Positions 4,956 through 62,125 of a stretch of 64,000 nt of DNA are shown piece after piece. The notes beneath the pieces were generated by a model. The model worked only from the letters and a program-made list of their open reading frames with translations, searched no databases and was not told where the DNA came from. The translations under genes and the position numbers were made by a program. How positions within the stretch are numbered: the first letter of the stretch is position 1; each line of letters starts with the position of its first letter. This DNA comes from an uncultured Clostridia bacterium (GTDB taxonomy: Bacteria > Bacillota > Clostridia > Oscillospirales > Acutalibacteraceae). Where the stretch lies: NCBI GenBank assembly GCA_947632045.1, contig CANRNQ010000008.1, forward strand, positions 18,342 to 82,341, read 5' to 3'.

Positions 4956-5020
4956 CTGTATCTTTCCTTTCTTTCCCCGTGGTTTTTTCTGGCAGATCGC
5001 GTATACACGGGCTTATTCCC

Positions 5021-6784
5021 TTATTTTTTCTGCTGCTTGAGCTTTTCGAGGTATTTTTCTATATCGCTTATATCGGCGCTTGCCGCGTTTTCCGCCGTTA
5101 TCCTGTCGTTTTCTGAGAGTATCACTCGTATGCAGTCGTCGCGAGCCGCGACGGAGTTTATATTCCCCCCGAAAGATGCAAGCATTCCGGCAATTTTTCC
5201 GTTTTCTTCTACGGTAAATTCCCCCGAGATATCCGAGGGCATTATATTTCTGCCGTCGAGCGCTCTCTCGGTTATTATACCGTAAACTCGCCTGTTGAAC
5301 GACGTTACAAGCTTTTCCGGCGGCAGCAGTTTTGCGATCTTTGCCGCCTCACCCGGATTATTTATGATATAAGCTATCAATGCCTCCTCCGCTCTTGCCG
5401 CCCTGAGATTTGCGGCCTTCTCGGAGTTCACCCTGTCGTCCCTGCCGGAGGCGACGGTCTGAATATCTCTAAACTGCTTTTTTGTCCTTTCTCGGACATT
5501 TTTCTTTCTGTAACCGTTTATCTGGCGCAGCACCGATTCTTTGCTAACTCCGGTTTCATCGCTAAGCCTTCCCGCGTAGACCTCCGCCTCTATCGGGTTT
5601 TCAAGCTCAGACAAAAGTCGAGAGCAATCGGTGAGATAGGCAACGACCTGGCTTTGCTCGGTCAGTATATATTTTTGCTTTATCTTCTGTATTCTGTACT
5701 CTATATCGTTTCCGCTCTTTTCAAGGAGCCGTTCAAAACGCTCGCGACCCTTGTCGCCGTTTTCCCTTATAAATTCGTCTGGGTCCTTTGCTCCCGGCAC
5801 GGATATCACCCTTATGTCAACTCCGGCGCTCCTCAAAAGCTCTATCGCTCTCTGCGCCGCCTTTTGACCCGCCTCGTCGGAGTCGTAGCAAATATATACC
5901 TCGTCGGCATAGCGCTTCATAAGCATTGCCTGCTCGCGCGTAAGCGCCGTTCCGAGCGTTGCTATTGCAGAGGTGAAGCCCGCCTGGTGCAGAGCTATTA
6001 CGTCCATATATCCCTCGCAGAGTATAAGACTGCGGTCGCCGCCCTTTGCGAAGTTCAGCGCAAAGAGATTCGTGCTTTTTTTAAAAACGGGCGTATCGGA
6101 GGTGTTGAGGTATTTCGGCTTTTGGTCCGTCATTATCCTGCCGCCGAAGGCTATGACGTTCCCCCGTAGATCTATTATGGGGAACATCACTCGGTTGTAA
6201 AACCTGTCGGATATGCTGCCGTTTTTGTTTTGATATACAAGGTTTGCCGCGACCAGCTCCTGCGGCTTGAAGCCCTTTGATTTCAAATAATCGACAAGGG
6301 CAAAGCGTTTGTCCGGGCTGAAGCCCAGTCCAAAGTGCTTTATGGTTCTCTCCGAAAGGCCTCTTCCGCGCAGATATTCGAGTCCCTCCTTGCCCTCTGA
6401 CGTATAAAGCGTCGAATAATAAAACCGCCCCGCCTCGCGGTTCGCCTCGAAGATTCTTCTCCGCAGCTCGCTCAGGCTGTTGTCGTATGAGCTTTCAGGC
6501 ATTTCCATTCCGGCTCTTTGAGCCAGCAGCTTGACAGCGTCTATATAATCGAGGTTTTCTATTTTTCGTATGAAGGTTATCACGTCGCCGCCCGCTCCGC
6601 AGCCGAAGCAGTAAAACGAGCCGTTTTCGGGATATATGTTAAACGACGGCGTTTTTTCGCTGTGGAACGGACAGAGCCCAACGAGATTGCGCCCGCGTCT
6701 TTTTAGAGTTACATACGACGAGGCTATGTCGGATATATCGCTCCTCAGCTTCAGCTCGTATAAAAAATCGTCCGGTAACGGCAA
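5021..6784 (-). CDS. dnaG: DNA primase
   Basis: CHC2 zinc finger (CPFHSEKTPSF…FYCFGCGAGGD), TOPRIM EGYMDVIAL. Confidence 0.96.
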   Translation of the reverse strand: MPLPDDFLYELKLRSDISDIASSYVTLKRRGRNLVGLCPFHSEKTPSFNIYPENGSFYCFGCGAGGDVITFIRKIENLDYIDAVKLLAQRAGMEMPESSYDNSLSELRRRIFEANREAGRFYYSTLYTSEGKEGLEYLRGRGLSERTIKHFGLGFSPDKRFALVDYLKSKGFKPQELVAANLVYQNKNGSISDRFYNRVMFPIIDLRGNVIAFGGRIMTDQKPKYLNTSDTPVFKKSTNLFALNFAKGGDRSLILCEGYMDVIALHQAGFTSAIATLGTALTREQAMLMKRYADEVYICYDSDEAGQKAAQRAIELLRSAGVDIRVISVPGAKDPDEFIRENGDKGRERFERLLEKSGNDIEYRIQKIKQKYILTEQSQVVAYLTDCSRLLSELENPIEAEVYAGRLSDETGVSKESVLRQINGYRKKNVRERTKKQFRDIQTVASGRDDRVNSEKAANLRAARAEEALIAYIINNPGEAAKIAKLLPPEKLVTSFNRRVYGIITERALDGRNIMPSDISGEFTVEENGKIAGMLASFGGNINSVAARDDCIRVILSENDRITAENAASADISDIEKYLEKLKQQKK

Positions 6785-6869: not shown

Positions 6870-7098
6870 GCTGCCGCGCGGTATGCTTAGGCAGCTTTGA
6901 GCGTGCGTTTAAAATTCGGGCGGCGACCGGCGCGGCGCAGCCGCGCGGAAAAAACGCGGCATAACGAGAGTGTGATTTTATAAAGGGTAAACCGCCGCCG
7001 CGTTTTTTCGCACATTTCCGCCGGAGGCGGAAATGTGCCGGTCGCCGCCCGAATAAGTCTGGCTAAGGCAGATAATAAAAACGCGACGACGCGGCAGC
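6870..7098. repeat. Palindromic element copy 1 (inverted relative to copies 2-8)
   Basis: Outer GCTGCCGCG(6870-6878)/CGCGGCAGC(7090-7098); core stem TTCGGGCGGCGACCGG(6915-6930)/CCGGTCGCCGCCCGAA(7038-7053); three internal hairpins. Confidence 0.9.
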
Positions 7099-7131
7099 CG
7101 GGTATGAGCTTCAACCCCGCAGCGAACCGTC

Positions 7132-8133
7132 TTAAAGCTTTTGCCAGAATTTCGGTATAAATAAATTTTCATAGGTCTGCACCGCAAAGTGATCCGTCAT
7201 TCCCGCGATGTAATCACAAACCGCGCGTTCAACACCCTCGCTGTCGGCTATCGCTTTAAGCTCGCCGTCAAGCAGCTCCGGATGCTTTGTATAATAGTCA
7301 TAAAGGCTTTCTACAAGATGAGGCACCTTCTTTTCCTCTGATTTAGCGTATTCGCTCTTGTATACGCAGTCAAACATATATTTATGCAGGGCGTTGAAGC
7401 ACTCGAAAAAATGCTTGTCCATCTTTATCTCCCCGCCGACGCTGTTCTCGACCACGTTTACAACCATTGAATTTATTCTCTCGCTCGTCGTAGAACCAAA
7501 CGCTTCTATAAATTCCTTCGGCAGATCCTTCTCGCTTATCGCTCCTGCCCTTATAGCATCGTCTATATCGTGATTTATATAGGCTATCCTGTCGGCCGTT
7601 CTCACTATTCGTCCCTCAAGGGTGTCGGCCTCTTTTCCTTTTGTGTGGCAGAGTATACCGTTTTTGACCTCGTATGTAAGATTAAGCCCCGCACCATTCT
7701 TTTCTAGCCTCTCCACGACTCTCACGCTCTGCTCAAAATGCCTGAAGCCGCCCGGGTGCAGATCATTCAACGCCCGCTCACCGGCATGGCCAAACGGAGT
7801 GTGCCCCAGATCGTGCCCAAGAGCTATTGCCTCTGTGAGATCCTCGTTGAGATCGAGCGCACGGGCGATAGTACGAGCTATCTGCGCAACCTCAAGCGTA
7901 TGAGTGAGCCGCGTTCGGTAATGGTCGCCCTCGGGAGAAAGAAAAACCTGGGTCTTGTGCTTGAGCCTGCGGAACGATTTGCAGTGTATTATTCTGTCGC
8001 GGTCGCGCTGGAACGCTGTGCGCATAGGCGACGGCTCCTCCGGTCGCTCTCTGCCGCGGGAATTTTTCGAGAGGCAGGCAAGGCTTGAAAAACGCCTTTC
8101 TTCCCAATAACAGATTTTTTCATTTATCGTCAT
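7132..8133 (-). CDS. dgt: Deoxyguanosinetriphosphate triphosphohydrolase-like protein (HD domain)
   Basis: RDRDRIIHCKSFRRLKHKTQVF…HTLEVAQIART…LGHDLGHTPFGHAGE. Confidence 0.93.
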   Translation of the reverse strand: MTINEKICYWEERRFSSLACLSKNSRGRERPEEPSPMRTAFQRDRDRIIHCKSFRRLKHKTQVFLSPEGDHYRTRLTHTLEVAQIARTIARALDLNEDLTEAIALGHDLGHTPFGHAGERALNDLHPGGFRHFEQSVRVVERLEKNGAGLNLTYEVKNGILCHTKGKEADTLEGRIVRTADRIAYINHDIDDAIRAGAISEKDLPKEFIEAFGSTTSERINSMVVNVVENSVGGEIKMDKHFFECFNALHKYMFDCVYKSEYAKSEEKKVPHLVESLYDYYTKHPELLDGELKAIADSEGVERAVCDYIAGMTDHFAVQTYENLFIPKFWQKL

Positions 8134-8430
8134 TATACCGCTTCCTTTTGCCGTCGGCAGGCAAGATGAGGCTTTTGATAACCCTTTTTCGCCGTAAATC
8201 GTTTATTTTCGCGTAGATTTATATGCTGTCAATATAATATACCTGATTATTTAAAAATATCCTCTTATTTTTTGAATTTTTTTTGCTAAAACAAAGAAGT
8301 AGGGCAGTTTTTGATTCACCATAAAGGTCAAGCGGCGATTTAAAGCCCTGTAAAATAATTTTCCAAATCAAAAGCCCTTTACATAATATTGGACAGCCTT
8401 GGGAATTATTTATAAAAGGGGATTTGATAT

Positions 8431-9780
8431 ATGTTAAAACTCAGAAAACGACAGATTGTAAGAATAGTCAGCTTCGCCGCCGCAGTTTTATTGCTGATAA
8501 GCGCAGCGTGTGTTTCGGGCTTTTCAATAGCAAGCAGGTACCGTTCGGCAATAGAGCACGGTTATCAGATGGCACTGTCCGAATTATCAGACTATATGAC
8601 AAGCATACGGTCAACGCTTGAAAAAGGCCTGTACGCAAATACGGGCACTTCAAGGCTTTCCCTCGCGGCAAAGCTGTCAAACGACTGCACCGGAGCAAAA
8701 TCGGCTCTTGAACGGTTGCCGGTATCGGTAGACGAGGCTCAGCAGCTTCAAAAGTTTTTGTCGCAGGCGGGCGATTTTTCGGTCAGTATGATAAATTCCG
8801 CCGCAAGAGGATACGAGTTCTCGGCACAGAGCAGAGACAGTCTTGAGTCTCTGTCAAAATATGCCGACAATGTAGCGCCGATAGTTGAGGACCTCTCGGC
8901 TCGGTACGGCGACGGTGAAGTGCCGCTCGGCATTGACGAGAGCATCGCCGACAAAGCTTCAGTCAACGCCCGCCGCGAGTTCGTTCTTGACGCGGATTTC
9001 AGCGAAATAAACGAAAGCTTCACGAGCTATCCTACTCTTATTTACGACGGACCCTTTGCCGACAGCGTACAAAATCGAGAGAGTATATATCTTGAAGACT
9101 TTTCCGAGTGCGAACAGTCCGATGCAAAAGCAAAGGCGGCGGAATTTCTCTCTGTGAGGGATGAAGCGTTAAAGCCGCTTGAACCGATAGAGGGCAATCT
9201 TCCCGCCTACGCCTTTTCCTTTGGTGAAAGCGGATATATAACCGTTACGCGTAAGGGCTGCCGCGTGTTGGAAATGAGCGAGGGGCACGGAGATATAAAG
9301 GCAAGGCTTAAGTACGATTCCGCGCTTGAGCGCGCCGCCGCTTTTCTCGAAAAGCAGGGCTATAAAAATATGAGGGAGAGCTATTACGCGATAAACAATA
9401 ACGTGTGCGTTATTAATTTCGCCTATGTTCAGGACGAGGTTATTTGTTATCCGGATTTAATAAAGGTGGGCATATCGCTCGAGGACGGGAGGATACTCTC
9501 ATACAGTGCGGAAAATTACCTTATGAACCACTGCATCAGAACGTCGCAGCCATATCTTTCGCCCGCCTCGGCGCGACTCAGTCTCAGCCCGTATCTGACC
9601 GCCGGAGAGCCGCGCCTTGCGATAATTCCGGTGGAGAACGGTTATGAATATCTCTGCTATGAGTTCGTTTGCAAGGGCGTAGACGATGAAGACATTCTCG
9701 TTTATATCAACTGTGAGACGGGACTTGAGGAGCAGATACTGATACTTTTAAAATCCGATAGTGGGGAGCTGACTGTGTGA
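8431..9780 (+). CDS. ypeB: Germination protein YpeB-like (PepSY domains)
   Basis: N-terminal TM segment, YpeB-type helical region, C-terminal PepSY-like repeats; no SleB gene adjacent. Confidence 0.75.
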   Translation: MLKLRKRQIVRIVSFAAAVLLLISAACVSGFSIASRYRSAIEHGYQMALSELSDYMTSIRSTLEKGLYANTGTSRLSLAAKLSNDCTGAKSALERLPVSVDEAQQLQKFLSQAGDFSVSMINSAARGYEFSAQSRDSLESLSKYADNVAPIVEDLSARYGDGEVPLGIDESIADKASVNARREFVLDADFSEINESFTSYPTLIYDGPFADSVQNRESIYLEDFSECEQSDAKAKAAEFLSVRDEALKPLEPIEGNLPAYAFSFGESGYITVTRKGCRVLEMSEGHGDIKARLKYDSALERAAAFLEKQGYKNMRESYYAINNNVCVINFAYVQDEVICYPDLIKVGISLEDGRILSYSAENYLMNHCIRTSQPYLSPASARLSLSPYLTAGEPRLAIIPVENGYEYLCYEFVCKGVDDEDILVYINCETGLEEQILILLKSDSGELTV

Positions 9781-9782
9781 TT

Positions 9783-10011
9783 TTTGGCTGCCGCGACTGC
9801 GCCTCGCTTGTTTTGAGAGAGACTATGCGGGCGGCGACCGGCTGATTTACGCCGGTGGCGAAAATCAGCTTAAAACGCGGCGTCTGACCGTTTTTACACA
9901 GGCAGCCTTCTATTGCGCCGCGTTTTGCGCGCGGCCTGCGGCCGCGCAGGTCGCCGCCCGCCTAGGCTATGGCTAAAGCACACAGTAAAAACGAGCCGAA
10001 CGGCAGCCAAA
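9783..10011. repeat. Palindromic element copy 2
   Basis: Outer TTTGGCTGCCG(9783-9793)/CGGCAGCCAAA(10001-10011); core GCGGGCGGCGACC(9827-9839)/GGTCGCCGCCCGC(9949-9961). Confidence 0.92.
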
Positions 10012-15902: not shown

Positions 15903-16128
15903 TTGCGCGGCGCAGAGCATAAGGCGGCGACCGCTTTCCGCCGCCCCTTACGGGGCGACGGAAAGCAAAAAAGGCGGCGCGCAGCTTCCCTACAAAGGGA
16001 TGCCATGTTCTGCCGCGTTTTTTGCGCGCGCCCTGCGGGCGCGCACCGGTCGCCGCCCAAAGCCTTCGGCTTTGTGCCGGCCTCCGGCCGGCACAGCGCG
16101 GGCTATGCCCGCTGTATCAACGGCGCAA
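15903..16128. repeat. Palindromic element copy 4 (most divergent; right arm overlaps the 3' end of the 16103-20509 CDS)
   Basis: Core GGCGGCGACC(15923-15932)/GGTCGCCGCC(16048-16057); hairpins GCTTTCCG.CGCCCC/GGGGCG.CGGAAAGC and GCGCGCCC/GGGCGCGC; weak outer TTGCGC/GCGCAA. Confidence 0.8.
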
Positions 16129-19100
16129 TTATTGAAGCCGCAGCCCAGAATACAATGTAAAGCAGTAAATCGAGTCCGCTGAGCCCTGCCAAGCCGGCAA
16201 ACAGAGAAACTATTCCGGCTATCAGCACTCCGAGAGCTACCGCTATTATTTGAATGATTATCGCTATTGAGATATTATCCCTGATTTTTATGCAGCCGCT
16301 TATGGCTCTTGCAAGCGAATGAAGCTTGCCCTCGGTCGATATAAGGGCGCGCGCGGCCTCGTCTTTGCGCGACATCTCATCTTTACAGATGTTTCCGAGT
16401 GTTGTCGGCAGTATTTTTATGCTTCTGATAAATATTCTGAAATCCTTTGCGACCTTAAGCTGAGATACATTCGGGTCGGCGGTTCTTATTAATATAGTTA
16501 CACCGTTATTTTCGAGGCGTTTCAACTCCTCGGCAAGCCTTCTGTCCGCCTGATAATCTGTAACAAGCATGGCAACAAGCTGTCCCGCATTTGCAAGATA
16601 GGTTATGCTGTTTGTCTTGCTCTTCATTGAGCTTTCCTCAAAGTCGACGCTCGGCAGATTTATCGAATATTTTGCCATCAGCTCGCGATTGCCAAGCAAC
16701 AGGCGTTCTCCATCTACCCAGCTGACTATGCCCTTGCCGTCCTCATATTTAACGCTTTCCACCGCCGGAAGCTGCTCGCATTTTTCGCTTATAACATCTT
16801 CAAACATATAGGTCATCGGGGTGTTGGCTATCTTCATCACAGCCGCCGCATTCAGTAGGGCCTTGTCTATATTGTAGGCATTGAAGGTCTTGACCGCAAG
16901 AAGCTGAACGCTGCCCCTCGGATAAAGCTCGCGGCTGTCTATCATAACGGCTCTCGTGTCGGCAAATTGCTTAACGGCCGGATATCCTATCACCATCGCC
17001 CTGTTGGCGAGAGTATCTGAGCAAAGCTTTTTCATCGGAATATTTACCGCAAGCAGGCAGCACATGGGCACGCCCATGCACGCAACAAGCGAAAACGCCG
17101 ACAGAGCCGTGGAAACCGAGGCGGCGGATATTCCGCATATTACCGCGACAAGCACAGCGACCACGGTTGTTATGGGAGCCATAAACGACGCGGTGCGCTC
17201 GCTCGGGTCTGGCATATACGAAAAGCGCAAAAAGCCCTTTAAAAATCTCGTTCTGCTTTGCAGAGCAACAACGGGCTTGTCTGCATTTGTTTTTGAAATC
17301 ATCTGCCTTGAAATATCCTCGTCGCCGAATATTCTCGCGGCGTATTTTCTGTTTGGCGAAGATACGAATTTGAAATTGTCCCTTATTCTTCTTACAATGC
17401 AGAGCTTGCCAAGATTATTTAACAGCAACGCCGTTATAGCAAGTATGGAGTAAAGATGCAATCCGCCGTTAAAGAAGGTCTGCGGCTCAAAGAACGATAC
17501 GATTCCTTGAACAACACAGCCGGCAGTTGCAACCGCGGCCGCCGTGTCGGAGTTTCCCTTGAAGGCCAAAAGCGGCTTCAGCCCGCCAAAGACTGTGCTG
17601 TGGCAGAGCACTGCGGAAGCGACGAGCAGTATAAGGCTGACGAGGCAGGTCATAAGGTCGGAATTTGGTATGTTGTTTGTAAGGACAGACGGAGCGCAGC
17701 GCTGAATTATATGCATGGCAAGCATTATAAGAAATATTACTCCGAGCGCGGCACAGCGAAACGCGACCTTGCGATTGTCGTAATTTATTTCGGCTCTTAT
17801 CGCCCTTGCGTCCGACGGCTTTTCATAATCGTCTATCTGCTGGCCGCCCTGACGGTTTATGTTTGTCTGCTCTCTAAATTCAGAGAAATCCGCGCTGTTT
17901 TCCACCTCGCCAAACAAAACATCCTTGAGCGAACGCCTTGCGCCGGTGCTTTGGGGCTTTTTCTGCTCGCTGTTATTCTCGTTTTGAACAGCCTCTTCTC
18001 CTGTGGAAGGCAGGCCCTCCTTAACCGCCTTGGATACCTCTGAATTGACCTCGGGCGCAACTATCTCGCTCGCCTTTGGCTTGTATTTTGCCTGTCTTAT
18101 GTACTCTTCGTACTCTTTGCGCACCACGAGCTGTAAATCGTCGTTCGCAAGGCTGATTTTTTCTACGTTTGATTCATGTATATATTTAGGAATTACCTTT
18201 CCGTTTACAAGCTGTCTGCCGTCAACCTCGTCTATTTTGACGGCTGTGCTCGACGCCTCCTCAAAGGTCACGGCAGCGCCGTCCGAATTTGCTTCATTCT
18301 CAAGCGTCGCTGCGGCTGCGGCTCCTTCTTCGTTTTCTTCCGGTGCAGCAGCTTCCTCTTGGTCATTGTCCTGGCTCTGCGCATTTGCAGCCTCGTCGGT
18401 ATCGGTCTGCGGCTCGTTTTGAATTTCCGGCTTTTCCTGAGCCGCCTCTTCCTCCTTATTTTCATTTTCTCCTGTGGCCTCTACTGTATCTGATACATCA
18501 AGGTCATCGAGCTCGTCATTAGGTGATTCTCCGTTCCAAAAGCTCTTGAGTCTTCCTATGAAGCCGCGCTTTTTCCTTGGAGATTTTCTAATAATCTCTA
18601 TTGGGGCGTCCGGCCCCTCTGTGATAATGTCGGCTGCGGCTTCTTCATTGTGCAGTGCACCAAGCTCTTTGCCGTCGGCAAGCGGTTTGTCTGCGCCCGC
18701 CGCAGCGTCAGAGCTATTCGTGATATCCTCCGCTTCACGCTTTTCGACGGTATCCTCCGCTTTTTTCTCCTCACGCTCGGCATCGACTTCGGCTTTGGGA
18801 ATCTCTTCTTCATCGTATTCCCCGCCGTCGCTTTCTGCTTCTTCCTCTTTTTCGTCTTCTTCAACGCCGTTTTCGCCGTAAAACTCCCTCGAGGGATCTA
18901 TCACCGTCAGCACGGGCTTTTGCGGCTCGACATTTTCATCTTCAAAATCTGCGTCTATCGTAAGCTCGTCTTCGTCCGAGAACTCATCCTCGTCGTCATA
19001 GCTGTCGTCCTCATTCCATATGCTCTTTATCTGCTCTATCGGAGAGCTTTTTCTAAGCGGCACAATCTCTGCGTCCTCCGCGTCATCCTCCGTATAGCTT

Positions 19101-20509
19101 CCATATTCGTCCTCGTTGTCAAGCTCGTTGTCACTCTCGTGGAAAGGGGTAAAAAAGGATTTTATTCTGCCCCTCATCGCGGCGAAAAAGCCTTTGGATT
19201 TATTGTCGTCGACGGTAGCCTCATCGTGATATTCCTCGGAGCTCTCGGCTTCCTCGTCATTTATGCTCTGCATATGCTCCTTCGGGGCATAGTCTGAGAG
19301 GTCGTCATATTTAACGCTCGGCTTTATCCAGTTAGCGTTATCCGCCTTTTCCTCGGCGTTTACCTCCTCTTCCGTCACAGAGGCGTCTCCGTTTTTGATA
19401 TCGTCGCCATTCCAAAAGCTCTTTATTTTTGAGAACACAGATCCCTTACTCTTTTTGTCTGCGTCCTCCACTCTCGGTTCATCGGCTTCGGCTTGTTCCG
19501 TTTCTTCCTCATCGAAGGCTGAGTCCGTCTCGGTATCTTCGTCTATATTTTCATCAGGCGCGGTATCCGTATTTCCTTCTGTTTCTTCCTCCGCCTCAGG
19601 CTTGATTTCATCGGCGTCACGCTCAAAATTCGCCCCGCTTTTTGCCTTTTCATCAAATACAGACGGATCGAAATTTTCGTCAAAATGCTCCTCGAAATCC
19701 TCCGAGCCTGTCCAAAACGCCTTTATTTTATGCCAAAAGCCGCCCTTTAATTTTTCCTCCGGCTCTCTTTCAAGCTTTGGTTCCTCTTTGGGCTCATATG
19801 GTTCTTCTTCAGGTTCGGGCTCTTCTTCAGGTTCAGGCTCTTCTTCAGGTTCGGGTTCTTCTTCAGGTTCGGACTCTTCTTCATGTTCCGGTTCTTCTTC
19901 AAGCTCCGGCTCGACTTCAAAGTCCTCCAATTCTTCTTCGAGGTATTCCGGTTCCTCCGCAAGATCTTCCGACTTTTCTAACTGCTCATCATCGGCGGGA
20001 GAATAGCCTTCATAATCAGGCGGATAGTCAAGCTCCTCGTACCGATTGTTTTGCTCGTCATTATCATCATTATATGTATCATCGTACGACTCATCATAAG
20101 CTTCTTCCGCTTCACCGCCGTCATAATCGAAATTTTCGGCGTCGTCTGCTTCGTTGTACTCCGGCGCAGTCTGTACGTCGTTATCGTAGAAAAAGTTGTA
20201 GTTCTTATTTAAATCCGAGCCTTTGCTTTTTTTATTTTTCTTGCTCCTTTTGGTTTTTTCCGCTTTATTTTTCTTTTTTGACTTCGGCTCTTTTTTCGGC
20301 TCTTTGCCGGGCGACGCCGCCTCTTCAAGGCGTATGCTCTCCATAAGCTCGGCTATTCTTTGTGCCTCTTCGCTTTTAGCCGCTTTTGGCTGCTGTATCT
20401 GAGCCGTGAGCTGAGAAATATCTATTGCTTCCTCCTCCGCAGAATAGTTGTCCTGCGCAGATACGATTTTCTCGCCTTTATTCTTGAGAATATCCTTTTT
20501 TCGACTCAT
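16103..20509 (-). CDS. Large acidic low-complexity protein with C-terminal multi-TM, degenerate P-type-ATPase-like module
   Basis: Residues ~1-880 Asp/Glu-rich with five IKSFWNG-type motifs; C-terminal ~580 aa multi-TM with N-domain-like GKGIVSWVDGERLLLGNRELMAKYSI. Confidence 0.6.
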   Translation of the reverse strand: MSRKKDILKNKGEKIVSAQDNYSAEEEAIDISQLTAQIQQPKAAKSEEAQRIAELMESIRLEEAASPGKEPKKEPKSKKKNKAEKTKRSKKNKKSKGSDLNKNYNFFYDNDVQTAPEYNEADDAENFDYDGGEAEEAYDESYDDTYNDDNDEQNNRYEELDYPPDYEGYSPADDEQLEKSEDLAEEPEYLEEELEDFEVEPELEEEPEHEEESEPEEEPEPEEEPEPEEEPEPEEEPYEPKEEPKLEREPEEKLKGGFWHKIKAFWTGSEDFEEHFDENFDPSVFDEKAKSGANFERDADEIKPEAEEETEGNTDTAPDENIDEDTETDSAFDEEETEQAEADEPRVEDADKKSKGSVFSKIKSFWNGDDIKNGDASVTEEEVNAEEKADNANWIKPSVKYDDLSDYAPKEHMQSINDEEAESSEEYHDEATVDDNKSKGFFAAMRGRIKSFFTPFHESDNELDNEDEYGSYTEDDAEDAEIVPLRKSSPIEQIKSIWNEDDSYDDEDEFSDEDELTIDADFEDENVEPQKPVLTVIDPSREFYGENGVEEDEKEEEAESDGGEYDEEEIPKAEVDAEREEKKAEDTVEKREAEDITNSSDAAAGADKPLADGKELGALHNEEAAADIITEGPDAPIEIIRKSPRKKRGFIGRLKSFWNGESPNDELDDLDVSDTVEATGENENKEEEAAQEKPEIQNEPQTDTDEAANAQSQDNDQEEAAAPEENEEGAAAAATLENEANSDGAAVTFEEASSTAVKIDEVDGRQLVNGKVIPKYIHESNVEKISLANDDLQLVVRKEYEEYIRQAKYKPKASEIVAPEVNSEVSKAVKEGLPSTGEEAVQNENNSEQKKPQSTGARRSLKDVLFGEVENSADFSEFREQTNINRQGGQQIDDYEKPSDARAIRAEINYDNRKVAFRCAALGVIFLIMLAMHIIQRCAPSVLTNNIPNSDLMTCLVSLILLVASAVLCHSTVFGGLKPLLAFKGNSDTAAAVATAGCVVQGIVSFFEPQTFFNGGLHLYSILAITALLLNNLGKLCIVRRIRDNFKFVSSPNRKYAARIFGDEDISRQMISKTNADKPVVALQSRTRFLKGFLRFSYMPDPSERTASFMAPITTVVAVLVAVICGISAASVSTALSAFSLVACMGVPMCCLLAVNIPMKKLCSDTLANRAMVIGYPAVKQFADTRAVMIDSRELYPRGSVQLLAVKTFNAYNIDKALLNAAAVMKIANTPMTYMFEDVISEKCEQLPAVESVKYEDGKGIVSWVDGERLLLGNRELMAKYSINLPSVDFEESSMKSKTNSITYLANAGQLVAMLVTDYQADRRLAEELKRLENNGVTILIRTADPNVSQLKVAKDFRIFIRSIKILPTTLGNICKDEMSRKDEAARALISTEGKLHSLARAISGCIKIRDNISIAIIIQIIAVALGVLIAGIVSLFAGLAGLSGLDLLLYIVFWAAASIIAPLIQRA
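19801..19915 (-). repeat. ~18-bp period tandem repeat encoding EPEPEEE
   Basis: TCTTCTTCAGGTTCGGGC-type units repeated about six times on plus strand. Confidence 0.85.
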
Positions 20510-30469: not shown

Positions 30470-33217
30470 TTATGCGGCGCTCTGCCCGGAAGCTATTTCA
30501 TTGTAATCTACGGTAAACACTCTGTCCTCGGTTATCGGCCCACTATATATTTGCCGCAGCAAACCCATGGGACCGGCTGTGTCGTCCTCTATCCAGATTA
30601 TAATAGACGAAATATCCATCGGGTAAAAGTATCCTTTGGCTGTTCCGCTGTTATCGCTTGTGCTCTTACACTCTACGGTTCTTCCGGTGTCGGGATCTGT
30701 CTGAGCCACAACTCCTGCCCATACGCAGTCATCGGGCGCGTTTTGCAGGACGATATCAACCGCTATCGCTCCGTCGGGCTTTTCATAGCCGTCCCATGAG
30801 GTCGTGTCGTTGTCGAGCTGAGCCTTGTCGAAGATGGCGTTTACCGTGTCGATGTATTGCGACAGGCCGTTGCGCTTGAGCGAGTAGTCTACAAGTCCGG
30901 CAACCTCCCTGTATCTGCTTTTCGGCGTGAGAAGATACAGAGTGTCCTTCCAGACCTTGAAATTATCCGCTATGCTTATTCCGCTTTGCGACATTTGATA
31001 GCACACATAGGAGAGAACGGAATTATTCGTGTGTACTCCGCCGTGGTCGTCTACGGTCCCGCTCGGGAAGCGCGAATTCATTTCATAGAAGACGTCGCCC
31101 ACAAACTCGGGCTGAGCAAACATATGCGGATTAGCCATAGAGCGTATCGGCGTTCCCGACTGCTCGCTTATATACCAGTTTACAAAATCGGAATTGTCCG
31201 GCTCTAATTGCATCTCAATGAGATTTCCGAGTATATCGGCATATCCTTCCTCAACCGCGCCGGTGTCGTTGAGGTAAGCTCCGGAATCGTTATACGACTT
31301 TCTTATTCCGTGAGAGAACTCGTGTGCGGCAACGTCAAGAGATGTGCTTATTGGGTAGCTGCTGAACGCAAAGCAGCCAAATCCGCTGAAGGTTGACAAA
31401 AAGCCGGCGTTGTTCTGCTCCATTCCGCCTATCGAGTAACCGAAGCCTACGGCTATCGGTATACCGTTGCCGTCGAGAGAGTCGATGCCGTGAGCCTTAT
31501 AAAAGTCGTAAATCTTTCTCATGTTTTCAAAAGCGGTGACATATACCGGGTTGATATCGCCGCTGTTTTCAAAGGTGTAAACATAGAAATCGGGTACTAC
31601 GGAGCCCGGGGTGTCAAAGTAAGTCTTTTGCGAGTCTACGCACAATATCTTTCTCTCCGTATCAACAAAGTAATAGCCCGACTCGTTCCTTGCCACAGGC
31701 AGTACGACCTCTTTGCCGAAGCTGTCGGTGAAGGTCATATTCTGAGTTTCAACGTTAAAGTAAACGTCGTTGTCATATTCGCCGCTGTCGGCGTCAATGC
31801 TCGATATCGACACTATATCGAGAACGTCGCCCTGTTGAACGCTTACAAACAGCTTAAAATATTTGTTCATATCGGCGGACTGCTGGTCCTCGGTTTTGTT
31901 GCGCTGTAAATAAAACTCCCAGCATACGTTGTTATTATGTACGGATAGCTCCGACTCCTGTCCTATGTCAAGGAGAGTAAAGCCGTTCTGCTCGCTGTAA
32001 TTCGCGGCAATCTCCCTTGCCTTCTCGGAGGATACATTTATATCGTCCTCGGAAACGTCCACCATTGTCGCGGTGGGGTCTATCGAGCTTGAAAGGCAGA
32101 GTGTGTTGCCGTCCTTGTCAACGCCTATCTTTATGAACGCGTCGGACACCGTTGCAAGCCCCTGCGTTTGCGCGAAGGTGTAATATGTATCACCGTTGTC
32201 CGTAACGTCGGTTCTTACGGGATTTATCGTTATAGGATTTCCATTTACATTCAGAAGCGTCTTAACCGCTTGGAAAGAGCTTATTGCGGTCTCCCAGTTG
32301 GTGACCTTGTAGTCCGTGTATCGTCCGTTTATGAACGACACCTCGTTTGAATCTCTGTATCTGAGAACAGCCGCGTCGCCGTTGTTGAGAGCCTTTATAT
32401 CAGCCTCGGTGTTGTCGTGTATCTCCGGCTGTTCGGGGAATTCCACCGTGAGGGTAACCGTTACAGTTTCACTGCCGAGTTCAAGCTCCAGCTTGTCCTC
32501 TATAACGGTATATGCGCTCTCGTCGGCGGCTTTTGCGCTCAGCATCGGCATTGATACCGCCAAAACGGACGAGGCGAGGGTGAAGCAGAGCATAATGGAC
32601 ATCATGCGCCTGTTCTTTTTTACTATCACGAGAACCGCCGATGCGGAAACGAGAAGTACAGCGATGAGCAGTGCAATCACACCGAAGAATGAATCGTCGC
32701 CCGTGGCAATGGTGCTTTGCTGTACGGTCTTGCCGTCCGTGACGGTCGTACCGCCGGGTTTACTGTTGTCCTTGCTGTTATCCTTGCCGCTGTCGGACGG
32801 GGACGTTGAAGGCTGAGTCGGTTCGGGATTTGTCGCCGCGCTTTTCGTGGCGGGCTCCGTCGCGGCGGGAGTAGTGTCGGAGGCGGCCTCCGACTTCAGG
32901 GAAATGTTAGCCGTCAGGCTGTCGCTCTGTTCGGATTTTAGTGAAACGCCGGTTTTCTGAGTATCGCCGGAAAGCTCCGCGTTGTCGGAAACGGAGAGCT
33001 TGTAGTTTACGCCGTCTATGTCGTAATAGTTGGCGTTTTTGACCGTCGCGGTAACGGTCGCCCCGCTGTCTGTTTGAGAGTCCGCGGTGACCTCGCCGCT
33101 TATTCCGTAGGATACTGTCGCGGCGGAGGCCGTGGACATACCCGTGAAGAGCATAACGGAAACGAGAAGCAGAGAGGCTGCGAGCTTAGCCAATTTTGAT
33201 TTTGCTTTTTTCGTCAT
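30470..33217 (-). CDS. M4 (thermolysin-like) family metallopeptidase, composite N-terminus, copy A
   Basis: AAHEFSHGIRKSYN…NDTGAVEEGYADILGNLIEM…DDHGGVHTNNSVLS; signal peptide; internal TM at residues ~176-200. Confidence 0.85.
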   Translation of the reverse strand: MTKKAKSKLAKLAASLLLVSVMLFTGMSTASAATVSYGISGEVTADSQTDSGATVTATVKNANYYDIDGVNYKLSVSDNAELSGDTQKTGVSLKSEQSDSLTANISLKSEAASDTTPAATEPATKSAATNPEPTQPSTSPSDSGKDNSKDNSKPGGTTVTDGKTVQQSTIATGDDSFFGVIALLIAVLLVSASAVLVIVKKNRRMMSIMLCFTLASSVLAVSMPMLSAKAADESAYTVIEDKLELELGSETVTVTLTVEFPEQPEIHDNTEADIKALNNGDAAVLRYRDSNEVSFINGRYTDYKVTNWETAISSFQAVKTLLNVNGNPITINPVRTDVTDNGDTYYTFAQTQGLATVSDAFIKIGVDKDGNTLCLSSSIDPTATMVDVSEDDINVSSEKAREIAANYSEQNGFTLLDIGQESELSVHNNNVCWEFYLQRNKTEDQQSADMNKYFKLFVSVQQGDVLDIVSISSIDADSGEYDNDVYFNVETQNMTFTDSFGKEVVLPVARNESGYYFVDTERKILCVDSQKTYFDTPGSVVPDFYVYTFENSGDINPVYVTAFENMRKIYDFYKAHGIDSLDGNGIPIAVGFGYSIGGMEQNNAGFLSTFSGFGCFAFSSYPISTSLDVAAHEFSHGIRKSYNDSGAYLNDTGAVEEGYADILGNLIEMQLEPDNSDFVNWYISEQSGTPIRSMANPHMFAQPEFVGDVFYEMNSRFPSGTVDDHGGVHTNNSVLSYVCYQMSQSGISIADNFKVWKDTLYLLTPKSRYREVAGLVDYSLKRNGLSQYIDTVNAIFDKAQLDNDTTSWDGYEKPDGAIAVDIVLQNAPDDCVWAGVVAQTDPDTGRTVECKSTSDNSGTAKGYFYPMDISSIIIWIEDDTAGPMGLLRQIYSGPITEDRVFTVDYNEIASGQSAA

Positions 33218-33565: not shown

Positions 33566-36262
33566 TTATGCGGCGGATGTTGTGGGAACCGTGTTAAAAT
33601 CCACGGAGAATGACATGTCCGCGCTCAATTCGTCTTCGTAGACAGCGGAAGCGCGATATTCGTCGCCGCGCTGGAACCCATATACGACCGCGACTTTTGT
33701 TCCCGGATACAGGTATCCCTGAGCGACATTGTTTTTGTCATGAGTCAGATACATTGCCGTTATACCGCCCTGTGGGGACCGCATTATTATCGTTCCCGCC
33801 CAAACGTAATCGTCCGGAACGTTTGTCGCGCTGAGAGTAAGCTTTACGGCTCCGTCGGGGCGGTCATAGCCGTCCCATGAGGTGGTGTCGTTTTCAAGAT
33901 GCGCCGCGTCAAATATAGAGTTTACGGCGTCGAGCTTGTCGGCAAAGCCGAGTCGCTTCATTGAATACCTGACCATCTCTGCGATCTCTTTAAATTCGCT
34001 TAAAGGAGCAAGCGTGTATATGGTGTTCTTCCATATTCTGAAGTTGTCCTCAAGGCTTATTCCGTTTTGAGTCATCTGATAGCAGGTGTAGGAGAGAACC
34101 GAGTTGTTTGTATGCGTACCGCCGCGGTCGTCGATATTATTGCCGTCGGTGTATAGGGAATTCATCGAGTAGTAAACATCGCCTATATACTCGGGCTGAT
34201 GATAGCTGTGCGGATTTGCCATGCAGCGCACCGGCGAGCCGGACTCCTCACCCAAAAGCCAGGTTTCCATATCCGCGTTTTCGGGGTCGATAGTCATTTC
34301 GATCAGGTTTCCGAAAATATCGCCGTATGACTCCTCGATAACTCCCGTATTATTAGCATATGTTCCCGCGCAGTTGTACGAGTTCCTTATCGCGTGTCCG
34401 TACTCGTGCGCCGCCGTATCAATGGCGATGCTGACGTCCGTTTTACCGAACTCGAAGCAGCCGAAGCCGCCCGTATTTGAAACATAGCACGCGCCCGAGC
34501 TCTCTTGTCCGGCGGCGATATAGCCGTAGCCGACGGCGAGCGGAATACCCATGCCGTCTATCGAGGTTATACCGTGCGCCTTGTAAGCGTCGTAAACCCT
34601 TCTCATGTTTTCAAAAACGGTGACGAGAATGGGGTCGGCGCTGTCGATTCCGTCAAAATGGTACGGATATACGCCAAGCAGAATATCCTTATCCGTGTCG
34701 TATGAGGTTTCGGTATCGATGCAGATTATTTTACGCTCTGTATCGACAAAGTAGTATCCGTCGCTGTCATGTGCGACAGGCAGCTCGACGGTTTTGTTAA
34801 AGCGGTCGGTGAAGGTCATATTTTGAGTTTCAACATTAAAGTAAACGTCGTTGTCATATGCGTCGCTGTCGTAGTCGTCTATGCTTGAAACGGATAACGT
34901 GTCGAACACCTCTCCCGTTTTGGCGTTTATATAAATTTTCAGATATGCGTTCTCTGTTTCCGAGGAAGCGTTTGATTTCAGGTAGAACACCCAGCAGACG
35001 GCAAGATCACCGTTTTTATGTATAACGGGATTCTGCGCGTCGTAAGCGAGATTATAGCCGTTCTGTTCGCAGTAATTTTCGGCGATTTCCTTTGCCTTAT
35101 TCTGGGATACCTTAATGTCGTCCTCCGAAAGCTCCGCCATTGTCGCGTCGGGGTCTATCGAGCTTGAAAGGCAGAGAGTGTTGCCGTCCTTGTCAACGCC
35201 TATCTTTATGAATGCGTTAGACACTACCGCAAGACCCTGAACCTGCTCGAAGGTGTAATAAGTGTCGCCGTTTTCGGCAACGTAGGTCTTTGCGGGATTT
35301 ACCGCTATACCATTTACATTCAGAAGTGTCTTAACCGCTTGGAGGGAGCTTATTGCAGTCTCCAAGTTGGTGACCTTGTAGTCAGTGTATCGCCCGTTTA
35401 TGAACGACACCTCGTTTGAATCCCTGTACCTGAGAATGGTCGCGTCGCCGTTGTTGAGAGCCTTTATATCAGCCTCCGTGTTGTCGTGTATCTCCGGCTG
35501 TTCGGGGAATTCCACCGTAAGGGTAACCGTTACCGTTTCACTGCCGAATTTAAGCTCCAGCTTGTCCTCTATAACGGTATATGCGCTTTCGTCGGCGGCT
35601 TTCGCGCTCAGCATCGGCATTGATACCGCCAAAACGGACGAGGCGAGGGTGAAGCAGAGCATAATGGACATCATGCGCCTGTTCTTTTTTACTATTACAA
35701 GGACAGCCGAGGCTGAAACGAGAAGTACGGCGATGAGCAGTGCAATCACACCGAAGAACGAATCGTCGCCCGTGTCAATGGTGCTCTGCTGTACGGTCTT
35801 GCCGTCCGTTACGGTCGTGCCGCCGGGTTTGCTGTTATCGGACGGAGACGTTGACGGCTGAGTCGGTTCGGGGTTTGTCGCCGCACCTTCCGTGGCAGGT
35901 TCCGTCGCGGCGGGTGTCGTGTCGGAGGCGGCCTCCGACTTCAGGGAAATGTTAGCCGTCAGGCTGTCGCTCTGCTCGGATTTAAGCGAAACGCCGGTTT
36001 TCTGAGTGTCGCCGGAAAGCTCCGCGTTGTCGGAAACCGAGAGCTTGTAGTTTACGCCGTCTATGTCGTAATAGTTGGCGTTCTTGACCGTTGCGGTGAC
36101 GGTCGCCCCGCTGTCGGTTTGAGAGTCTGCGGTGACCTCGCCGCTGATTCCGTAGGATACCGTCGCGGCTGACGCCGTGGACATACCCGCGAAGAGCATA
36201 ACGGAAACGAGAAGCAGAGAGGCTGTGAGCTTAGCCAGTTTTGATTTTGCTTTTTTCGTCAT
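33566..36262 (-). CDS. M4 family metallopeptidase, composite N-terminus, copy B
   Basis: AAHEYGHAIRNSYN…NNTGVIEESYGDIFGNLIEM…DDRGGTHTNNSVLS; N-terminus nearly identical to copy A. Confidence 0.85.
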   Translation of the reverse strand: MTKKAKSKLAKLTASLLLVSVMLFAGMSTASAATVSYGISGEVTADSQTDSGATVTATVKNANYYDIDGVNYKLSVSDNAELSGDTQKTGVSLKSEQSDSLTANISLKSEAASDTTPAATEPATEGAATNPEPTQPSTSPSDNSKPGGTTVTDGKTVQQSTIDTGDDSFFGVIALLIAVLLVSASAVLVIVKKNRRMMSIMLCFTLASSVLAVSMPMLSAKAADESAYTVIEDKLELKFGSETVTVTLTVEFPEQPEIHDNTEADIKALNNGDATILRYRDSNEVSFINGRYTDYKVTNLETAISSLQAVKTLLNVNGIAVNPAKTYVAENGDTYYTFEQVQGLAVVSNAFIKIGVDKDGNTLCLSSSIDPDATMAELSEDDIKVSQNKAKEIAENYCEQNGYNLAYDAQNPVIHKNGDLAVCWVFYLKSNASSETENAYLKIYINAKTGEVFDTLSVSSIDDYDSDAYDNDVYFNVETQNMTFTDRFNKTVELPVAHDSDGYYFVDTERKIICIDTETSYDTDKDILLGVYPYHFDGIDSADPILVTVFENMRRVYDAYKAHGITSIDGMGIPLAVGYGYIAAGQESSGACYVSNTGGFGCFEFGKTDVSIAIDTAAHEYGHAIRNSYNCAGTYANNTGVIEESYGDIFGNLIEMTIDPENADMETWLLGEESGSPVRCMANPHSYHQPEYIGDVYYSMNSLYTDGNNIDDRGGTHTNNSVLSYTCYQMTQNGISLEDNFRIWKNTIYTLAPLSEFKEIAEMVRYSMKRLGFADKLDAVNSIFDAAHLENDTTSWDGYDRPDGAVKLTLSATNVPDDYVWAGTIIMRSPQGGITAMYLTHDKNNVAQGYLYPGTKVAVVYGFQRGDEYRASAVYEDELSADMSFSVDFNTVPTTSAA

Positions 36263-57796: not shown

Positions 57797-57833
57797 AAAA
57801 CCCGAAATCCGGTATCGTCGGATTTCGGGTTTT
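57797..57833. terminator. Near-symmetric intrinsic terminator
   Basis: AAAACCCGAAATCC…GGATTTCGGGTTTT. Confidence 0.75.
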
Positions 57834-57896: not shown

Positions 57897-59738
57897 TCAA
57901 TCTCTTTCCTTTTCGTGCTTGATTATATCTCCGGTATAAGCGTCGATCTCGTATTCATATTCAAATCCGCCGGATTTGAATTCTATTTCATAAACGACCC
58001 TTCCCTTTTCGCGGTCAAGCTCTATCTCAAACTCTCTTACGCTGCCCGCAGAAACGCCCGCGTGAGTCAGGGCTATATCCCTTGCGCTCTGCTCGCCTAT
58101 ATAATCCCGGCTGTCGGGGTCGAATTTGTTTGTGTCGTCGCGGTAATCTCCCAGCTCCTTATAAGAGCTTATTACCTCTCCGCTCACCGCGTCTATATCA
58201 TAGTCATACTCAAAGCCGCCCGACTTGAACTCTATCTCATATACAACGACTCCTCTTTTAATGTCAAGCTCTATTTCGACCATTCTCACGCTGTCGGCTG
58301 AAACTCCCGCGTGAGCGACGGCTATATCCTTTGCCTTTTGCTCTCCGATATAACCGTTATTATTGGGGTCGATTACCGGGTCGCGGCGGTCGTCAAGCTC
58401 CTTGTAAGAGCTTACTATCTCTCCGCTGACCGCGTTTATATCATAGTCGTACTCGCAGCCGCCGTATTTAAAGTCTACCTCATAGACAACCACGCCTCTT
58501 TTGCTGTCAAGCTCTATCTCGAGTGCGCTCACCTTATCCGCGCTAAGTCCGGCGTGGCTCAATGCTATCTCCTTTGCCCTTTGCTCGCCTATATAATCGC
58601 TGCTGCTCGGAGGCGTAACATCGGTATCCTTGCGGTAATCGTCGCGCTCCTTATACGAGCCGATTATATCGCCGCTTTCGGCGTTTATATAGTAATCGTA
58701 GTCATATCCGCCGGATTTAAATTCAACCTCGTATACAATAACTCCGCCTTTGCGCTCAAGCTCCGCTTCAAGCTCCCATACATTCTCCGCGCTGAGTCCG
58801 GCATGAGCAAGAGCTATCTCCTTCGCCCTCTTTTCGCCTATATAATCTACGCTGCCCGGATCTACGCCCGGATTTGTCGTGAAATCGTTGTCGTGCTCTT
58901 TATAAGAGGTGACTATTTCTCCCGTTTCCGCATTTATATCATAATCATATTCATAGCCGCCCGACTCAAATTCTATTTCATAAACGACTACTCCTCTTTT
59001 GCGGTTCAACTCTATTTCAAGCTTTTTAAGGCTGTCGGCGGAAACTCCGGCGTGCTCATAGGCAATCTCCTTTGCCTTCTGCGCGCCGATATACGCCTTG
59101 TTGCTCGGATCGATGTCGCCAAGGCGGAAATCGTCGTCAAGCTCCTTGTACGAATGAACGATCGCGCCGCTCGTCACATCTATCTCGTATTCATACTCAT
59201 AGCCGGCGACCACAAATTCAACCTCATAGACAACCGCTCCTTTTCTGCGGTCCACCTCGATTTCAAGCCGCCTTACGTCGTCCTCTGAAACGCCGGCGTG
59301 CTCATAGGCGATGGCCTTTGCCCTTTTGCCGCCGATATAGCCGCCGCTGTTCGGATTGACCTCGGCGCTGTCGTTGTAGCTGACAATCTGTCCGCTCGTA
59401 TCAAAATAAGAATGTCTTGTAGCGTCGTCCTCGATTTTTAAAATGCTTAAGGTATGCTTTTGCACTTCAATTGCGTCGGCCACCGTTATCTCTCCGTTTT
59501 TGTCTACGTCGCAAAACGGCACGGCGTCGCTGGTAATTCCTCTTATGTTTACAACGTGTTTTTGTACCAATATTGCGTCGGCCACACTGATATCGCCGTC
59601 AAAATTAACGTCGCCGAGCCTTATTTCATAGGCTGCGGAGCTTGGCTGTGCGGCAAGCGCCGACGGCACGCAGAGCGCCGCCATAAAAGCGCTGAGGAAA
59701 AAAGCGGTCGGTTTTTTCAACAAATTTCTTTTTTTCAT
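57897..59738 (-). CDS. Secreted dockerin-containing protein with six tandem PepSY-type repeats
   Basis: Signal peptide; LGDVNFDGDISVADAILVQKHVV and FCDVDKNGEITVADAIEVQKHTL; six YIGxxxAKxIAxxHAGxS repeats. Confidence 0.88.
   Translation of the reverse strand: MKKRNLLKKPTAFFLSAFMAALCVPSALAAQPSSAAYEIRLGDVNFDGDISVADAILVQKHVVNIRGITSDAVPFCDVDKNGEITVADAIEVQKHTLSILKIEDDATRHSYFDTSGQIVSYNDSAEVNPNSGGYIGGKRAKAIAYEHAGVSEDDVRRLEIEVDRRKGAVVYEVEFVVAGYEYEYEIDVTSGAIVHSYKELDDDFRLGDIDPSNKAYIGAQKAKEIAYEHAGVSADSLKKLEIELNRKRGVVVYEIEFESGGYEYDYDINAETGEIVTSYKEHDNDFTTNPGVDPGSVDYIGEKRAKEIALAHAGLSAENVWELEAELERKGGVIVYEVEFKSGGYDYDYYINAESGDIIGSYKERDDYRKDTDVTPPSSSDYIGEQRAKEIALSHAGLSADKVSALEIELDSKRGVVVYEVDFKYGGCEYDYDINAVSGEIVSSYKELDDRRDPVIDPNNNGYIGEQKAKDIAVAHAGVSADSVRMVEIELDIKRGVVVYEIEFKSGGFEYDYDIDAVSGEVISSYKELGDYRDDTNKFDPDSRDYIGEQSARDIALTHAGVSAGSVREFEIELDREKGRVVYEIEFKSGGFEYEYEIDAYTGDIIKHEKERD
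57900..59345 (-). repeat. Six in-frame tandem repeats, period ~247 bp
   Basis: Repeat landmark C(C/G)(T/G)ATATA at ~58098, 58347, 58590, 58838, 59087, 59332. Confidence 0.88.
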
Positions 59739-59981
59739 AATGATCCTCCTCATTTTTTAATGTAAAATTATTCCAAAATAATTATACCATTCTTCCGATA
59801 TAAATAAAATAATTAAAATCGCAGAAAATTTTCCCTTAAAAATGTGAGAGGTATACAAAAAAATAAAAATCATCGGCATCTTTGAAAAGCACCGCTTTTT
59901 TAGAAAAGGCGGGCAGGAGCTTTAATTTTTCTGCCAAAATCAGGTTTAAAAACCAAGAGCCGCCTCGCGGCGGCCTGTTTA

Positions 59982-60638: not shown

Positions 60639-61658
60639 TTACGCCGCATCTCTCCCGCCCTCGTCAACTATTCTTGCGCCTATCACTATGCCGCCCTCTT
60701 CGCTCGCATCCATACACGAAAAGCTCATTGTCTTTGAGTCGGTAGTGCCGTCGTTGAAGGTCACGTCCGCCCTCACGGTAACTCTGCCGAACATTTCGTC
60801 GTATATCATTTTGAACGCCTGCATAACGTCCTCGGCATATCTCTCGTTCTCAGTGTCGTCCGAGCCTAAGGCATAGTCAGAAAAGCCGCTCGAGCCGAAG
60901 ATATAATCCGAAAACGCGCTTTTGACGTTCTCGCTTATATCGTCCTTCGACGACAGCCCCGCGACAATGTCTATCGGAAAAAGCTCCGGCATATCGGAAT
61001 AGCTCGCTATGCCGCTTTGCGCGCCGTAATCTATCGTGTAGCTTGAATACTCGCCGTAGCCCTCGGAGGTCATTCCGCTGTAAACGCTGTAAATCCATTT
61101 ATCTTTGCCGACCGCCTTTTTTGCCGAGATTGAGTCGGTTATCCTCGCCTCATTGGGATAGCTGCGCCTGTAATCGTCCTCAAATTCCTTTTTTATCGTA
61201 TCAAAGGGAAAAACAAAGCTTCCGTTCTTTATTGTGTATGTTACGGAGCTTATGTTTTTTCCCCTGCACTCGACCATAAACGGCACATTTGCCGTGACGT
61301 GCTGTTCCTCGTCTTCTCCGCTTACAGTGTTGCCGGAGGAGCCGCCCACCGGTCTGATCGCCGCCATTTCAACCGTCGCCTCGCCGCCGAGCTCCGAAGC
61401 GCTCGCCGTCAGCACAAAGCTGTTTTTTCCGCCCGTGCCGAAAATTGCCGAGCATATTATAAACACGGCAAGGCACGCGGCTACCGCCGACGCGGCTTTT
61501 ATATACGTCGCTCCCTTTCGCCTGCTCCCGCTCTTTATAGACGAGGGCTCGCTGCCCGCATTTATCACCTTTTCACGAAGTCCGTCCGACGCGTGCAGCT
61601 TATCAAAAATGCCGCCGTACATCATTTTCAGCTCATCTCTGCCTTCGCTCATATTCAC
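60639..61658 (-). CDS. Membrane protein, probable anti-sigma factor
   Basis: Single TM (AASAVAACLAVFIICSAIFG), overlaps the ECF sigma gene end. Confidence 0.65.
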   Translation of the reverse strand: MNMSEGRDELKMMYGGIFDKLHASDGLREKVINAGSEPSSIKSGSRRKGATYIKAASAVAACLAVFIICSAIFGTGGKNSFVLTASASELGGEATVEMAAIRPVGGSSGNTVSGEDEEQHVTANVPFMVECRGKNISSVTYTIKNGSFVFPFDTIKKEFEDDYRRSYPNEARITDSISAKKAVGKDKWIYSVYSGMTSEGYGEYSSYTIDYGAQSGIASYSDMPELFPIDIVAGLSSKDDISENVKSAFSDYIFGSSGFSDYALGSDDTENERYAEDVMQAFKMIYDEMFGRVTVRADVTFNDGTTDSKTMSFSCMDASEEGGIVIGARIVDEGGRDAA

Positions 61659-62125
61659 TCCTCCTTCATACGTTCTTTCAGCCTGCTCCTCGCCCTCATA
61701 AGACGGGTCTGCACGGCGCTTTCCTTAATTTTGAGTATGCCCGCTATCTCTCCGCAGGTATAGCCCTCGTAATAGTACAGGTGGATAACCGCCCTGTATT
61801 TCTGAGGAAGCCGCATTACCTCGTTAAACAGGTCGCGCTCGCTCTCGTCAAAATACTCCGCCTCGCCCTCAAGCTCGTCGAGCGATATTACGCCCCTGAT
61901 GCGCGCCGAGCGCCACACGCTTCTGCATTCGTTCATCGCGACCCTTATAAGCCATTTGCGTATATGCTCGTCGCCGTTAAACTTTGTATCCGTCTTTAAC
62001 AGCTTGTAAAACGCGTTTTGCACCGCGTCCTCCGCGTCAATTTTATTTTTTGAACAGCTCAAAACGGCTCGATACACCGCGTCGATATACCGCTCGGCTA
62101 TTCTTTCGTATTCCGCCTTATCCAC
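61655..62125 (-). CDS. ECF-type RNA polymerase sigma factor
   Basis: Region 2 and 4 motifs: DAEDAVQNAFYKLL; LPQKYRAVIHLYYYEGYTCGEIAGILKIKESAVQTRLMRARSRLKE. Confidence 0.93.
   Translation of the reverse strand: MDKAEYERIAERYIDAVYRAVLSCSKNKIDAEDAVQNAFYKLLKTDTKFNGDEHIRKWLIRVAMNECRSVWRSARIRGVISLDELEGEAEYFDESERDLFNEVMRLPQKYRAVIHLYYYEGYTCGEIAGILKIKESAVQTRLMRARSRLKERMKEE

Follow-up and report, generated by a model that had tools for sequence, protein, structure and literature searches.

C. thermocellum and C. cellulolyticum have protease inhibitors that bear a dockerin (PMC12484212), and in the RsgI proteins of C. thermocellum the C-terminal domain senses extracellular substrates, with release of the sigma factor (PMC12203970). 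The PepSY domain, to go by the citing passage in PMC10653890, was originally reported from the propeptides of M4 peptidases, as an inhibitor (Yeats 2004); in CopD and YpeB no contact between PepSY and the partner enzyme was found (PMC10653890). LanPepSY of Methylobacillus flagellatus, a lanthanide- and Ca-binding protein, binds as many as four Ln3+ as well as Ca2+ (PMC11845868). Among the open-licence papers searched we found none that joins PepSY with a dockerin or with RsgI, and no reported ligand for the type of PepSY array considered here. In the stretch of 64,000 nucleotides that we analysed (the window), from an uncultured Clostridia bacterium, one gene encodes a secreted protein in which a dockerin is followed by six PepSY modules.

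The dockerin-PepSY gene and its product

The gene (57897..59738, minus strand, as are all its parts given below) was delimited by its open reading frame and Pfam matches and codes for 613 residues plus stop. A signal peptide, the sole strongly hydrophobic stretch, was read from the sequence at residues 1-30 (MKKRNLLKKPTAFFLSAFMAALCVPSALAA; 59649..59738). It is followed by a type I dockerin (residues 41-94; 59457..59618) recognized by Pfam PF00404 (Dockerin_1, 34.5 bits, 2.4e-8, against a cut-off of 22.9) and by phmmer, where it resembles solved dockerins (2ccl, 1ohz), those of R. bromii Amy16 and C. thermocellum Xyn10Y among them. Motif reading places the two duplicated, EF-like Ca-binding loops, both intact, at residues 43-54 (DVNFDGDISVAD; 59577..59612) and 77-88 (DVDKNGEITVAD; 59475..59510). 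Signal peptide and dockerin are thus both present, as in the subunits of cellulosomes and amylosomes.

Six PepSY repeats follow at residues 134-203 (59130..59339), 216-285 (58884..59093), 299-368 (58635..58844), 382-451 (58386..58595), 463-532 (58143..58352) and 546-613 (57900..58103), each supported by Pfam, by the repeat alignment and by the AF2 fold, which for repeats 5 and 6 is that of a two-repeat model. PepSY (PF03413) matched in six stretches with a total of 164.9 bits (E 5e-49); repeat 1 taken alone reached 21.3 bits in the genome-wide scan, under the PF03413 cut-off. The spacing of 81-83 residues (243-249 bp) agrees with the ~82 residues and ~247 bp given in an earlier note on this DNA, which had also read the signal peptide, the two-repeat dockerin and the absence of an enzyme domain correctly. 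The repeats are 54-74% identical to one another and acidic, with a net charge of -53 over the 483-residue PepSY part, a mean net charge of -7.3 per repeat and a conserved acidic ladder E-Y-D/E-Y-D/E-I-D/N. Residues 108-123 (HSYFDTSGQIVSYNDS), which separate the dockerin from repeat 1, were considered as a truncated seventh PepSY, a remnant of the joining to an RsgI array; at 2.2 bits the likeness is suggestive only and the candidate was set aside.

No enzyme family was found in the protein by Pfam or NCBIfam. The same two collections gave no CAZyme or CBM module, the NCBIfam match to CelK being confined to the dockerin region. Outside the signal peptide the hydrophobicity profile has no high stretch and reveals no transmembrane (TM) helix, there is no LPXTG motif, and Pfam detected no RsgI_M domain. 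Since no hydrophobic stretch lies beyond the signal peptide and LPXTG is absent, the dockerin is the sole visible means of attachment. Against the orthologues in G004 and G005, which together with G003 are other species of the same genus as the source genome (G000), the gene shows purifying selection (dN/dS 0.11-0.14), which extends to each of the six repeats.

For repeats 5 and 6, an AF2 model based on 87 aligned relatives (pLDDT 87) gave one helix and four strands each, the PepSY fold being a helix with four antiparallel strands. In the full-length model (pLDDT 71.5), low-confidence linkers separate six alpha-beta-beta-beta-beta modules; the dockerin is also of low confidence there because only three alignment rows span this domain. 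The best two Foldseek matches are both PepSY proteins, CD1622 (4exr, 5.7e-7) and YpeB (5boi, 4.1e-5), and a sequence profile of the repeats found 4exr at 5.2e-16. The two-repeat profile matched 9vy3, 'Propeptide, PepSY amd peptidase M4', at 1.1e-13. This entry is probably LanPepSY, since its name and length of 153 residues fit the LanPepSY construct D24-E175 of 152 residues (PMC11899968). The window holds another PepSY protein, a YpeB spore-germination protein (8431-9780, plus strand; YPEB_N 5.7e-22, YPEB_PepSY1-2 4.8e-42), which is divergent and was missed by the PF03413 scan.

Upstream of the gene a TATAAT -10 box (59781..59786) lies in a context, ATGGTATAATTAT, that is conserved in G000, G004 and G005 and has the form of an extended, sigma-A-like -10; a ribosome-binding site GGAGGA (59744..59749) is likewise conserved in three species. 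The generic promoter scan did not list the TATAAT because a good -35 hexamer is absent. A terminator-like hairpin with a 17-bp stem (57797..57833) lies 3′ of the gene and a second hairpin near 59958-59975. Because hairpins flank the gene on both sides and its neighbours differ in G005, the arrangement suggests a single-gene unit. The same observations oppose an operon with BioY or with the ECF sigma/anti-sigma pair at 60639-62125, and both were rejected. Within that pair (minus strand) the ECF sigma gene (61655-62125) overlaps the putative anti-sigma gene, whose product has no Pfam family above cut-off. Elsewhere in the window, an 18-bp tandem repeat (19803-19912) codes for an EPEEEP-rich stretch in a 1468-residue acidic membrane ORF (16103-20509, minus strand).

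Kinship with RsgI-type arrays and distribution

At E<=1e-3 PF03413 is found in only two proteins of the source genome, the dockerin-PepSY protein and a 664-residue ORF on contig C4 that has a TM helix, RsgI_M (9.1e-28) and four PepSY domains. RsgI-type anti-sigma factors with PepSY-array ectodomains combine Pfam RsgI_M (PF23750) with PF03413. At this second locus (L229; G000:C4:24000-34000) the RsgI-PepSY gene occupies 4190-6181, its start overlapped by a sigma-factor gene (6109-6648), and the pair stands directly downstream of a GH13-dockerin gene encoding a dockerin-amylase (7003-9999), all three on the minus strand; the order is the same in G004.

For all 18 repeats compared, which are six in each of three orthologues and therefore not 18 independent tests, the closest non-dockerin relative is an RsgI repeat, a nearest-neighbour kinship that is weaker than a tree because PepSY repeats are short. 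The nearest match of repeat 6 is the final repeat in the RsgI protein of its own genome, at 68%. To place the array more widely, we assembled 133 distinct proteins with at least two PepSY domains from the loci of an 84,980-genome scan, 200 genomes of the family and later loci. An RsgI domain is present in 72 of them, 52 have a signal peptide, TM helix or lipobox without RsgI, three have a dockerin, and six are cut or unclear; Pfam bore this out, giving RsgI_M in 39 and a dockerin in two of the 64 proteins run. The 52 proteins without RsgI indicate that sensing is not the sole use of PepSY arrays, and the acidic ladder is common to arrays of all anchor types. Given that the nearest non-dockerin relatives of the repeats are all RsgI repeats, the simplest account, and judged from sequence kinship the most likely one, is that an RsgI-type array became joined to a signal peptide and a dockerin. 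An anti-sigma factor of RsgI type would then have supplied the array from its ectodomain, and it is this class of protein that most often bears such arrays.

In the scan of 84,980 genomes a dockerin was present at only two of 77 related loci, both of them orthologues (96% and 87% identical), and the three dockerin-PepSY proteins among the 133 are orthologues within one genus. The survey of such proteins that the earlier note had proposed thus yielded these three only; a query with the segment comprising the dockerin and PepSY repeat 1 found no other ORF with dockerin and PepSY in samples of 398 family and 391 class genomes, about 790 in all. Of 200 family genomes, 65 had a PepSY match at E<=1e-6. 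The dockerin-PepSY gene is present in three of the six species of the genus and the RsgI-PepSY gene in the same three, a co-occurrence confounded by phylogeny, which with three species against three could alone produce the pattern; the genome of one species without the gene is only 74% complete. The parts are each known, and the combination of dockerin and PepSY appears new and clade-specific, being unreported in the open-licence papers searched.

Co-regulation of the gene by the sigma factor of the RsgI-PepSY pair through a common promoter was also considered. When the upstream regions of the dockerin-PepSY gene and of the sigma/rsgI genes were aligned in three species, no motif in common was visible. 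Since the conserved promoter is sigma-A-like and no shared motif could be seen, co-regulation with the sensor is not supported and was rejected.

The cohesin-dockerin system of the genome

The source genome is a draft of 2.24 Mb in 57 contigs, 87% complete. Cohesins, on whose presence in the genome the earlier note had staked its reading beforehand, gave 11 matches, nine of them above cut-off, next to 39 dockerin matches, and cohesin matches were found in six of six genomes of the genus. Of the two observations that the earlier note had named as refuting it, repeats other than PepSY and a genome lacking cohesins, neither was made. In a genome this rich in dockerins and cohesins, display of the dockerin-PepSY protein on a cohesin scaffold is plausible, and its dockerin would dock it to a cohesin on a surface scaffold. 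Two dockerin classes can be distinguished, 'DRM..ITRHIAKW' and 'ADAI..QKHIVGI'. That of the PepSY protein belongs to the ADAI-QKH class, which is common to other secreted proteins of the genome.

Other dockerin proteins of the genome are of the BspA-type LRR, transglutaminase-like and GH13 amylase kinds. Since non-enzymatic dockerin proteins such as the BspA-type LRR ones are common, a secreted dockerin protein free of enzyme domains is ordinary here and some of the surprise that the earlier note attached to it fades; the unusual part is the PepSY array. Most of the cohesins stand singly in small proteins that have a hydrophobic anchor at the C-terminus, and there is one two-cohesin fragment. 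An unusual cohesin carrier (L007; G000:C2:49108-49479) has a zinc-ribbon-like CPKC..CPYC motif at its N-terminus and a single TM helix after it. Two further proteins (L228, 1920-5045, plus strand, and L037, G000:C3:17.3-18.8 kb) have cohesin-like modules together with a C-terminal ADAI-QKH dockerin and are candidate adaptor scaffoldins of this dockerin class. A search for GH48 as a sign of a cellulosome gave no match, but the control likewise gave none, so that the negative is uninformative.

Possible roles of the array and comparison with known systems

We tentatively favour the view that the protein is a secreted, non-catalytic accessory of the cohesin-dockerin system whose RsgI-derived, multivalent acidic array binds the same kind of ligand as the RsgI-PepSY receptor. 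With six acidic modules on flexible linkers the protein would be multivalent in its binding, and on the scaffold its array might bind the kind of ligand that the receptor reads at the membrane, for which a cation, a glycan or a protein are candidates. By analogy with C. thermocellum, the gut RsgI proteins probably bind ligands through their ectodomains, here PepSY arrays; were sensor and dockerin protein to share a ligand, this would match the use that C. thermocellum makes of carbohydrate-binding domains in its RsgI sensors. Because the same kind of PepSY sits on the outside part of anti-sigma sensors, a binding or sensing accessory is more likely than a controller of nearby peptidases. Cell-surface sensing, one of the two roles that the earlier note had envisaged, gains indirect support from the RsgI-type anti-sigma ectodomains as the nearest relatives of the repeats.

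A broader proposition, possible but rather unlikely, would be that PepSY arrays are extracellular ligand-recognition modules common to the RsgI-PepSY sensor and the dockerin-PepSY subunit, and a general sensory or binding domain in gut Clostridia, not a peptidase inhibitor. If this were true, a single recognition domain would serve at the membrane, where it detects a signal, and on the scaffold, where it captures that signal. Gut Clostridia commonly have PepSY arrays, many of them on RsgI-type anti-sigma factors, and the interest of the present protein lies chiefly in its pointing to these arrays as sensor or binding modules. A natural, soluble, dockerin-fused array would also offer a handle for finding the ligand, its six modules being producible as a soluble protein.

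The alternative that survives best, although we consider it unlikely, is a cation-binding array: the acidic beta-ladder would bind Ca2+ or other multivalent cations, buffer or bridge at the surface and perhaps aid the Ca-dependent folding of dockerins. The acidity of the repeats and their conserved ladder agree with this, as do the profile match to 9vy3, probably LanPepSY, and the binding of Ln3+ and Ca2+ by LanPepSY itself (PMC11845868). It is this ladder and this precedent that make a cation one of the ligand candidates in the reading we favour. However, the ladder is present in the PepSY arrays of all anchors, and secreted proteins are commonly acidic.

That the array is a scaffold-borne peptidase inhibitor or chaperone, restraining extracellular peptidases and shielding the subunits of the scaffold, seems distinctly unlikely. 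Dockerin-serpins and the dockerin protease inhibitor Dpi of cellulosomes provide a precedent (PMC12484212), the notion of PepSY as an inhibitor goes back to M4 propeptides (Yeats 2004, again as PMC10653890 cites it), and the window contains two M4 peptidase genes at a distance of 21.6 kb (36262 to 57897), close to the ~21 kb stated in the earlier note, with M4 also present in all three species that have the dockerin-PepSY gene. Comparison of the repeats with the window's M4 proteins, however, gave no likeness (no more than 1.3 bits in hmmsearch, blastp E values of 0.58 or higher), Pfam found no peptidase domain in the PepSY-array relatives examined, and CopD and YpeB were not seen to touch their partner enzymes with their PepSY domains. 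In the sister species G005 the genes around the dockerin-PepSY gene are different ones and M4 is encoded on other contigs, and G003 has M4 without the gene. Since the linkage is not kept in G005, M4 is also found in G003 and the repeats are unlike M4 proteins, the M4 linkage is uninformative and we rejected it as evidence; a peptidase-controlling subunit tied to these enzymes, as the earlier note had suggested, is not borne out. The M4 genes themselves (30470-33217 and 33566-36262, minus strand) are paralogues with nearly identical N-terminal parts. Their products have a signal peptide, a surface-anchor-like TG..TM..KKNRR stretch, then a second signal-like hydrophobic stretch and then the peptidase, as if an anchored protein had been joined in frame with a secreted proprotease.

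A role as spacer or structural subunit, in which the six modules merely give the dockerin protein more reach or cover the surface without a specific ligand, is quite improbable. In the models the modules are carried on flexible linkers, and repeat arrays often act as stalks, but all six repeats are strongly constrained, and because the array runs to the C-terminus with the dockerin at the N-terminus, such a stalk would be without a head and have nothing to present. Finally, it is highly improbable that the docked array acts on the RsgI-PepSY sensor, either by competing for ligand or by pairing with its ectodomain, and thereby adjusts the release of the sigma factor, for although the same repeat type is found in the same genomes and the two proteins are the only PF03413 proteins of the source genome, the regulation of the array gene and of the sensor appears separate.

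Taken as a ligand-binding accessory, which is the reading we prefer, the dockerin-PepSY protein can be set beside several described systems. CD1622 (4exr) and the C-terminal domain of YpeB (5boi) have the PepSY fold in common with the array, but they are a lipoprotein and a spore membrane protein, respectively, with fewer domains and without a dockerin. LanPepSY likewise consists of tandem acidic PepSY, a likeness that is drawn from the profile match to what is probably its chain, but it is a free periplasmic protein of two domains from a different phylum. Closer to the array are the RsgI PepSY ectodomains, which are of the same PepSY subtype and the same array form and have the C-terminal ending AYTGxIIKHEKE/REKxD in common with it; in place of the cytoplasmic N-terminus, TM helix and RsgI_M of these proteins, the dockerin-PepSY protein has a signal peptide and a dockerin. 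In this respect it resembles the non-catalytic subunits of cellulosomes and amylosomes, such as R. bromii Sas20, the dockerin serpins and C. cellulolyticum Dpi, which are likewise secreted and dockerin-bearing, and its genome, like the setting of those subunits, has dockerin-amylases; it differs from them in carrying PepSY where they carry a CBM or a serpin. Should the ligand be shared with the sensor, one domain would serve both for sensing and for capture on the scaffold, as carbohydrate-binding domains do in the regulation of cellulosomes.
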